64,000 nucleotides of DNA, from NCBI RefSeq assembly GCF_019969725.1, contig NZ_JAHXYW010000009.1, positions 62,001 through 126,000 of the forward strand, given 5' to 3'. This stretch comes from Neobacillus bataviensis. Its GTDB lineage: Bacteria; Bacillota; Bacilli; Bacillales_B; DSM-18226. Of the stretch, positions 2,678 to 13,517 are shown piece after piece. The translations under genes were made by a program, and so were the position numbers. Numbering within the stretch: the stretch's first letter is position 1; the number at the start of each line of letters is the position of its first letter. A model generated the notes under the pieces. The model ran no database searches. It was not told the origin of the DNA and worked only from the letters and a program-made list of their open reading frames with translations.

Positions 2678-4147
2678 ATGGAAGATTTAATCTTAACTCC
2701 TTATGCACCAAATTTAGTGGAGTCTACACGTTCAATTGGTTACTCTTTTGAAACGGCGTTAGCAGACATTATAGACAACTCAATTAGTAATTTTTCAAAG
2801 CGCGTTGACGTAAAATTTTCAAATACTGGAATTCCTTATGTTGCTGTAATTGATAACGGAATCGGAATGGGAACTGCTGAACTTGAAAAAGCAATGCGAT
2901 ATGGAAGTAGCAGTTCTTTAGATGAGCGCGGAGAAACTGATTTAGGACGATTCGGTCTCGGTTTAAAAATGGCTTCTATGTCGCAATGTAGGAAACTTAC
3001 AGTAATTTCAAAACAACGAGGGAAACTTTCTGCTGCGACCTGGGATTTAGACTATATTCACAAAACAAAAAATTGGTCTCTGATTAGATATTCTGAAAAA
3101 CAAATTGCAAAACTTAGATTTTCATCTGCCTTAGAAAATTATGAGTCAGGAACTGTGATTTTGTGGGAAGAGTTGGATAGAATTTCGGAATCCCCTACAG
3201 AATTTGATAGAGAGTTCAATGAAAAGCTAAATTTCGCAGATAAACATATGGCGCTTGTTTTTCATAGATTCTTAGAAAATAAATTATCAAAACAATATTT
3301 TGAACTTTTTTTCAATAATAGAAAAGTTGAACCGATAGATCCATATATGTTATCTAATCGAGCTACACAGCAACTTGAAGAAGAAACTTTATTTATAAAT
3401 CAGGTATCAATTAAAGTTACTCCATTTATAACTCCTTTTGTTAGTAAGTTATCAACAAAAGAGAGACAATTATTAAATGAATATAGAGAGTTGAATTTAA
3501 AACAAGGGTTGTATATTTATCGAAATAATCGACTAATTGTTTGGGGGAAATGGTTCAGATTATTAAGTGACGGTGAACTTAAACGTCTTGCGAAAGTGCG
3601 AATTGATCTTCCTAACAATATTGATACGCATTGGACAATTGATGTTAAAAAATCCTCTGCTCAAATCCCTAGTATGATTAAAGAGCAACTCAAACAAATA
3701 GTTCTTCGTGTGGTTGGTAAAAGTGAACGAGTTTATAAATATCGAGGAAGAAAGGTTGTACAAGATAGTTATCAGCACATTTGGAACAAGATTGAAAACC
3801 GTGAAAAAATGCAATACCTAGTGAATCGTGACATACCAATTTTTAGAGCATTGCAAGATTCACTAAACGACGAGCAATTCAAGCTTTTAGACGGATTTGT
3901 TAAGAGTATTGAAGATAGCTTTCCATATTCAGCTGTTTATTACGATTTAGCCAAAGACGAACAGTTTGATGAAAAGATACTTGAAGTCGAACAAGTTTAC
4001 GAATTAGCTAAAAATGCGATTGACGGATTAGCTAGAAATAAAGAAGAGCAAATTTTGCATTTGAAAAGTTTGTCTACAATTGACATGTTTCAGAAGTACC
4101 CTGAAGTTATTCGGTTGCTGGAAAAGGAGTTTGAATCTAATGAGTAA
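2678..4147 (+). CDS. MORC/MutL-like GHKL ATPase of a restriction operon
   Basis: A 489-residue protein with an N-terminal GHKL (gyrase, Hsp90, histidine kinase, MutL) ATPase domain. The ATP-binding motifs are all visible: the N box ETALADIIDNS (E25, D30, N34), the G1 box VIDNGIGMG (D59, G61, G63) and the lid GRFGLGLKMASMS (residues 90-102). An S5-like transducer region and a helical C-terminus follow. Bacterial relatives closest to eukaryotic MORC proteins are known from operons with Z1 helicases, PD-(D/E)XK nucleases and AIPR proteins, which is exactly this context. ATP-driven dimer clamping on DNA is the family's expected activity. It overlaps the Z1 gene by 8 bases, so the two are translationally coupled. 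The ATPase fold is certain; the restriction role is inferred from neighbours. Confidence 0.88.
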   Translation: MEDLILTPYAPNLVESTRSIGYSFETALADIIDNSISNFSKRVDVKFSNTGIPYVAVIDNGIGMGTAELEKAMRYGSSSSLDERGETDLGRFGLGLKMASMSQCRKLTVISKQRGKLSAATWDLDYIHKTKNWSLIRYSEKQIAKLRFSSALENYESGTVILWEELDRISESPTEFDREFNEKLNFADKHMALVFHRFLENKLSKQYFELFFNNRKVEPIDPYMLSNRATQQLEEETLFINQVSIKVTPFITPFVSKLSTKERQLLNEYRELNLKQGLYIYRNNRLIVWGKWFRLLSDGELKRLAKVRIDLPNNIDTHWTIDVKKSSAQIPSMIKEQLKQIVLRVVGKSERVYKYRGRKVVQDSYQHIWNKIENREKMQYLVNRDIPIFRALQDSLNDEQFKLLDGFVKSIEDSFPYSAVYYDLAKDEQFDEKILEVEQVYELAKNAIDGLARNKEEQILHLKSLSTIDMFQKYPEVIRLLEKEFESNE

Positions 4148-12089: not shown

Positions 12090-13517
12090 ATGTTTAAATT
12101 TATTGATTTATTTGCGGGAATTGGGGGAATTCGTTTAGCATTTGAAGAAATTGGCGGTAAATGTGTATTTTCATCGGAATGGGATCAAAATGCACAAAGG
12201 GTATATGAAAAAAATTTTGGTGATAAACCTTATGGTGACATTACAAAAATTGCTGCGAATGAAATTCCTGATCATGATATATTACTTGCTGGTTTTCCTT
12301 GTCAACCCTTTAGTCTGGCAGGTGTTTCTAAGAAAAATGCACTTGGCTTAAAGCATGGATTTGAAGACGAAACTCAAGGTACTCTCTTTTTCGACATTAA
12401 ACGAATTATACTAGCTAAGCGTCCAAAAGCATTTCTTTTAGAAAATGTTAAGAATTTAATGTCTCACGATAATGGTTTAACATTTAAAATAATAATGAGA
12501 ACTTTAGAAAGAGAATTAGGATATAGAGTTTATTCAAAAGTGATTGACGCAAAGGGATTAGTTCCTCAGCATCGAGAGAGAATTTATATAGTAGGGTTTA
12601 AGGATCATATAAAATTTAAATTTCCTGATTTGCCAAAGGATGGACCTGTTTTGAAAAGCATATTAGAGCCGTCTGTCGGTCCAAAATATACCTTATCTGA
12701 TAAATTATGGATTTATCTACAGGATTATGCTCAAAAGCATAAGGATAAAGGAAATGGATTCGGATATGGGATTGCAGATCTAAACGGTGCTTCAAGAACA
12801 CTTTCTGCTAGATACTATAAAGATGGTTCAGAAATACTCATAGATCAGGGTTTAGGCAAAAATCCAAGGAAACTGACACCACGTGAATGCGCAAGACTTC
12901 AGGGATTCCCTGATACATTTGAGATTGCTGAATCGGATTATTCAGCATATAAACAACTTGGAAATTCTGTTGCTGTTCCTGTTATTAAAGAAATTGCCAA
13001 AAATATGTTATCTGCTTTAAAAGAAAGACAATCAAATCTTAATTATAATAGAGGATTGTTAGTAGAACAGAACATATTAAACGAGGTCATTTTACGAATA
13101 AATTATTATAAAGAATTCTTTTTAAAAATAATTTCTTTGGAAGACTATAAAGCCTCACAATCCCGTTCAGGTGGGATAATATTAGATCAACAATCTTGGA
13201 ATTTATTTTTCGATTCTCCTGGAAAATCAGATGAAAATAGAGAAAAGGATATTAAGATATTTTGGGAGCAAATAGATGAAGTAACAGAAAGCAAAATAAA
13301 ATGGTTTGGGAAAAAGAAAAATCCGGAGTACAAAATTACTCATATTGGCAAAAGAATACCTTTTTTCACTGAGAATTATTTAGGAGATATTTTTGTTTTA
13401 ATTAAAGTAAACGATAAAGAATTTTTAGGTTATAAAATTGATAGTAAATATTTATTTACTTTGTTCCAACGAACTAAAGTCATAGAACACAATGAGCAAA
13501 ATAAAATTTTAACCTAA
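12090..13517 (+). CDS. DNA (cytosine-5) methyltransferase with a C-terminal extension
   Basis: A 475-residue C5-cytosine methyltransferase with all key motifs: I (DLFAGIGGIRLAF), IV (FPCQPFS, catalytic C71), VI (ENVKNL), VIII (QHRERIYIVG), IX (LTPRECARLQGFPD) and X (LGNSVAVPVIKEIAKNML). It should modify the self target of the restriction system using S-adenosylmethionine. About 160 residues follow motif X, which is unusual. This tail contains LGDIFVLIKVND, similar in pattern to the AGDLLVVSLQND segment of the neighbouring B3-like protein, and may be a second DNA-binding domain. I chose the ATG at 12090 because GGAGG lies 8 bases upstream; the in-frame GTG at 12075 precedes that site. A strong terminator follows. 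Confidence 0.93.
   Translation: MFKFIDLFAGIGGIRLAFEEIGGKCVFSSEWDQNAQRVYEKNFGDKPYGDITKIAANEIPDHDILLAGFPCQPFSLAGVSKKNALGLKHGFEDETQGTLFFDIKRIILAKRPKAFLLENVKNLMSHDNGLTFKIIMRTLERELGYRVYSKVIDAKGLVPQHRERIYIVGFKDHIKFKFPDLPKDGPVLKSILEPSVGPKYTLSDKLWIYLQDYAQKHKDKGNGFGYGIADLNGASRTLSARYYKDGSEILIDQGLGKNPRKLTPRECARLQGFPDTFEIAESDYSAYKQLGNSVAVPVIKEIAKNMLSALKERQSNLNYNRGLLVEQNILNEVILRINYYKEFFLKIISLEDYKASQSRSGGIILDQQSWNLFFDSPGKSDENREKDIKIFWEQIDEVTESKIKWFGKKKNPEYKITHIGKRIPFFTENYLGDIFVLIKVNDKEFLGYKIDSKYLFTLFQRTKVIEHNEQNKILT

Follow-up and report, generated by a model that had tools for sequence, protein, structure and literature searches.

How does a defence machine of the MZA type tell the DNA of its host from that of an invader? 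In the literature that we searched we found no explanation of self/non-self discrimination by such systems, and the question is raised by a locus of Neobacillus bataviensis, analysed here within a stretch of 64,000 nucleotides (contig NZ_JAHXYW010000009.1, positions 62,001 to 126,000; hereafter the window). An operon for a MORC ATPase, a Z1 helicase, a PD-(D/E)XK protein and an AIPR protein is followed there by a detached B3-like protein and a C5-methyltransferase; this inventory, first drawn up in the original prediction, is confirmed by domain, profile and structure matches (Table 1). The locus is a known kind of system in which the self/non-self module has probably been exchanged, and the explanation that we favour, with roughly an even chance of being right, is an MZA-type defence with swapped targeting genes.

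The core operon holds relatives of MzaB, MzaC, MzaD and MzaE in the same order as the MZA system (mzaABCDE) of Gao et al. 2020. In the strict sense of that system, however, all four proteins score far under the curated NCBIfam equivalog cut-offs (bits/cut-off: MzaB 292.9/850, MzaC 535.3/1500, MzaD 61.5/420, MzaE 294.3/1050), and no unaccounted open reading frame of a size suitable for the sigma factor MzaA is present in window positions 1-20 kb, where the scan with the MzaA model stopped. Among 80 MZA-type relative loci, the order and strand of the core genes are fixed in 78, and a C5-methyltransferase is present in 75, at most 1 kb away in 71. The excerpt of Miller et al. 2022 (PMC9523054) ranks this methyltransferase as a core gene; in the wide sense of MZA, or of their putative defence system 'type II' (II-A/II-B), the window does have an associated C5-methyltransferase, though one of Dcm type. 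The core can also be likened to the third MORC-helicase type in the excerpt of Iyer, Abhiman and Aravind 2008 (PMC2292703), made of MORC, a distinct SF2 helicase and a restriction endonuclease (RE)-fold nuclease; methylases, Vsr and AIPR are also listed there for MORC-helicase operons, and the second type joins an SNF2 helicase to HNH or EcoRII-like nucleases, with some VP1/RAV (B3) proteins. Residues E131, D161, E170 and K172 of the DUF4420 protein are invariant in 78/78 aligned rows. In the GHKL N box of the MORC family, Asp replaces the usual Glu general base in all 76 filled rows.

Judged by its sequence, the methyltransferase is not of the sort that belongs to an MZA-type operon. Identity to E. 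coli Dcm is 57.5% across 320 aa; it reaches 60% with an EcoRII-type neighbour and 64% with an MvaI-type one, and the target-recognition stretch is conserved. Three usual MZA methyltransferases, by contrast, reach 25-29%. A tree of 97 methyltransferases, made by a quick method with support from the Shimodaira-Hasegawa-like approximate likelihood-ratio test (SH-aLRT) only, places it apart from the usual MZA enzymes, in a 19-row clade (support 100) that also holds methyltransferases beside EcoRII-type enzymes (L001, L002, L053, L076, L124), fusions of a methyltransferase with EcoRII, and Dcm-like enzymes that stand free. Among the PADLOC models it fits DrmMII best (5.9e-159). Dcm recognizes CCWGG, EcoRII is described as cleaving the same sequence, and MvaI as its neoschizomer. 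Given the relatedness to these three types and the conserved target-recognition stretch, CCWGG is therefore the predicted methylation site.

Two B3 domains accompany this enzyme, one free and one fused to it. The free protein, a member of the B3 superfamily by its fold (AlphaFold2 mean predicted local distance difference test (pLDDT) 86.8), has the EcoRII N-domain as its top Foldseek match (3hqf, 4.2e-06), and its residues R82, E84 and R86 are invariant in 23/23 sequences. Five close relatives (63-71% identity) apparently come from the same five genomes as the five close relatives of the methyltransferase. Because the recognition-like residues are all kept and the length is near-constant in the window protein and these relatives (145-156 aa), the free B3 looks selected. 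The fused C-terminal domain (pLDDT 80.9) matches the B3 domains of BfiI and UbaLAI in Foldseek; in six split members the last Arg of the [RK]xEYR motif is gone from all six and the first basic residue from five, against retention of both in 11/11 fusions. By this alignment, the recognition-like residues of the fused domain are mostly lost.

Table 1. Features of the N. bataviensis locus (window coordinates).
Feature	Coordinates	Strand	Details
MORC/GHKL ATPase, MzaB-like	2678..4147	+	489 aa; Pfam HATPase_c_3 2.2e-34; PADLOC MzaB 2.4e-73
Second core gene (Z1 SF2 motor in the original prediction)	4140..6986	+	
DUF4420 PD-(D/E)XK nuclease-like protein, MzaD-like	6995..7897	+	300 aa; Pfam 1.1e-45
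AIPR protein, MzaE-like	7901..9970	+	689 aa; Pfam AIPR 1.9e-94
Fossil of MZA-type C5-methyltransferase, C-terminal ~25 codons (motif X)	10060..10134	-	tblastn; convergent with AIPR
Fossil of DrmC (DISARM PLD protein), frameshifted C-terminus	11093..11238	+	tblastn E 4.5e-10 to L122 DrmC, without shuffle control
Detached B3 protein, type A, EcoRII-N-like	11352..11798	+	148 aa; tblastn to EcoRII-type restriction endonucleases
Dcm/EcoRII-type C5-methyltransferase	12090..13517	+	475 aa from ATG 12090; 480 aa from GTG 12075
B3 domain, type B, at the methyltransferase C-terminus	13011..13514	+	aligned to EcoRII-N part of fusions P0175-P0185
Protein accompanying the B3/methyltransferase pair	13799..14086	+	95 aa; 45-48% to homologues in L120, L122
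Second AIPR-domain protein, outside core	14705..15928	+	407 aa; Pfam AIPR 7.1e-24

What became of the operon's own methyltransferase is suggested by the gap behind AIPR. The fossil there gave tblastn E values of 5e-6 to 4.5e-5 against L010, L017, L020, L004 and L023, with four window stretches as the database, and its score of 35.4 bits lies above those of 150 random segments taken from window 18.6-64 kb (30.4 at most) and of 150 Markov-shuffled versions of the gap (27.7 at most). In L004 an intact methyltransferase occupies the same position and strand, convergent and directly behind AIPR; in L010, L017, L020 and L023 the gene is co-directional, unlike the convergent fossil. In the simplest history, the operon would have lost its own MZA-type methyltransferase, a DISARM system formerly beside the B3/methyltransferase pair would have disappeared, and the pair would have been left standing next to the MZA core.

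The same partners meet elsewhere. In a Mesobacillus-type island the four core proteins are only 36/35/26/38% identical to those of the window, yet the B3 protein and the methyltransferase are 68/72% identical. In a Rhizobiaceae MZA locus the gene for a free B3 protein overlaps AIPR at its stop codon, with Dcm-vsr-EcoRII alongside, and in L122 the pair adjoins an intact DISARM. The MZA-type locus of Lacticaseibacillus porcinae (L005) encodes a free AspBHI_N recognition domain (17268-17891, 207 aa, 4.4e-17), a protein with no nuclease domain match and a parallel to the free B3 of the window. One IMG/VR contig (L145), with phage-like genes by eye, brings together in one operon a Dcm-type methyltransferase, an SNF2 motor, free B3-A and B3-B, MORC, HNH and a Vsr-like protein. 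The 95-aa protein is found in all three pair loci seen, and a weaker homologue (31%, 5e-8) adjoins the complete EcoRII-type system of L124; it has no Pfam match at 0.01 and by eye may somewhat resemble the serine-recombinase N-terminal fold. HhH-GPD glycosylases lie beside the pair or the MZA operon (L122 14025-14660; L121 717-1385) and perhaps repair T/G mismatches after 5-methylcytosine, as Vsr does.

Compared with described systems, the window shares with EcoRII (type IIE restriction-modification) a Dcm/EcoRII-type methyltransferase and two kinds of EcoRII-N-like domain, one free and one fused, but its recognition domain is a free protein, and the EcoRII-C catalytic domain (PF09019) was not found in the ten window proteins scanned; the open reading frames that come next encode the 95-aa protein and an AIPR protein. 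The CglI/NgoAVII excerpt (PMC4267653) describes a fusion of B3 with a PLD nuclease, whereas in the window B3 is separate, the nuclease is of the PD-(D/E)XK type and both MORC and AIPR are additional. Class 2 DISARM, for which an excerpt gives CCWGG modification (PMC12926258), has in common with the window a DrmMII-like methyltransferase and the DrmC fossil; a PADLOC scan of ten window proteins found neither DrmA nor DrmB, and of DrmC there is a remnant only. For the Corynebacterium diphtheriae BH8 island (PMC5379612), the excerpted passage names a whole EcoRII-like enzyme and not MORC or AIPR. From the type II system of Miller et al. 2022 (PMC9523054) the window differs by its Dcm/EcoRII-type methyltransferase, with the usual one as a fossil, and by its free B3 protein; section 11 of that paper names a 'putative transcriptional regulator' and no B3 protein.

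The original prediction had the six genes restricting unmethylated DNA, with B3 choosing the target. This interpretation is supported in part. B3 is rare at MZA loci (two of the 80). This rarity favours a reading that we consider appreciably less probable than swapped targeting, although a serious one: two unrelated neighbours. The pair would then be left over from DISARM or from an EcoRII-type system and survive by itself, as an orphan Dcm-like methyltransferase with a relic that binds DNA, and the MZA core would do without it or be crippled by now. The DrmC fossil adjoins B3, the L122 pair sits beside intact DISARM, the methyltransferase scores best as DrmMII, and pair and core share no operon. 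Against it stand the free B3, which looks selected, the recurrence of the pair beside a quite different MZA core and, in Rhizobiaceae, the overlap of a free B3 gene with the stop codon of AIPR.

Alternatively, the core might use neither methylation nor B3 and sense the structure or replication of phage DNA, the methyltransferases being incidental or a guard against other island enzymes. For this it can be said that mzaABCDE was published as a five-gene system with a sigma factor as MzaA, reportedly with no methyltransferase among the genes named by Gao et al. in 2020, and that five of the 80 loci show none, although the sequence of four of these (L008, L039, L081, L083) stops ~260 bp or less from AIPR. 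We nevertheless think it improbable: a methyltransferase within 1 kb in 71 loci from many phyla is hard to explain without a function, and the excerpt of Miller et al. 2022 counts it as core. That the island is decaying, with nothing left that restricts DNA, seems very improbable; the two fossils and the MTES_1575 fragment (17775-18263), with the broken frame before it, would fit, but all six genes are intact and their active-site residues conserved.

Further downstream, window 14705-16976 has parts in common with L121 3757-7788 of the Mesobacillus-type island. The second AIPR protein is 78.6% identical to its counterpart there (L121 3757-4983), and the first ~98 residues of an HNH-like protein are 57% identical to the N-terminus of a 905-aa L121 protein with a weak AAA match; by this comparison the two carry a common N-terminal domain on different effectors. 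At window 17403-18263 a large Hhe/ProA-like protein is represented by a C-terminal MTES_1575 fragment, preceded by broken frames, and 18505-20202 encodes a protein in which TerD, exonuclease and BRCT domains are joined.

The locus suggests that MZA-type machines can be re-aimed through exchange of parts. It makes the self/non-self question testable, for it offers a predicted methylation site, CCWGG, which would be common to it and laboratory Dcm strains, a named candidate reader protein and a natural swap in which the usual methyltransferase is gone. If the favoured explanation is true, specificity in a widespread defence family would be exchangeable, as HsdS makes it in type I systems, and a function would emerge for recognition domains detached from restriction enzymes elsewhere.
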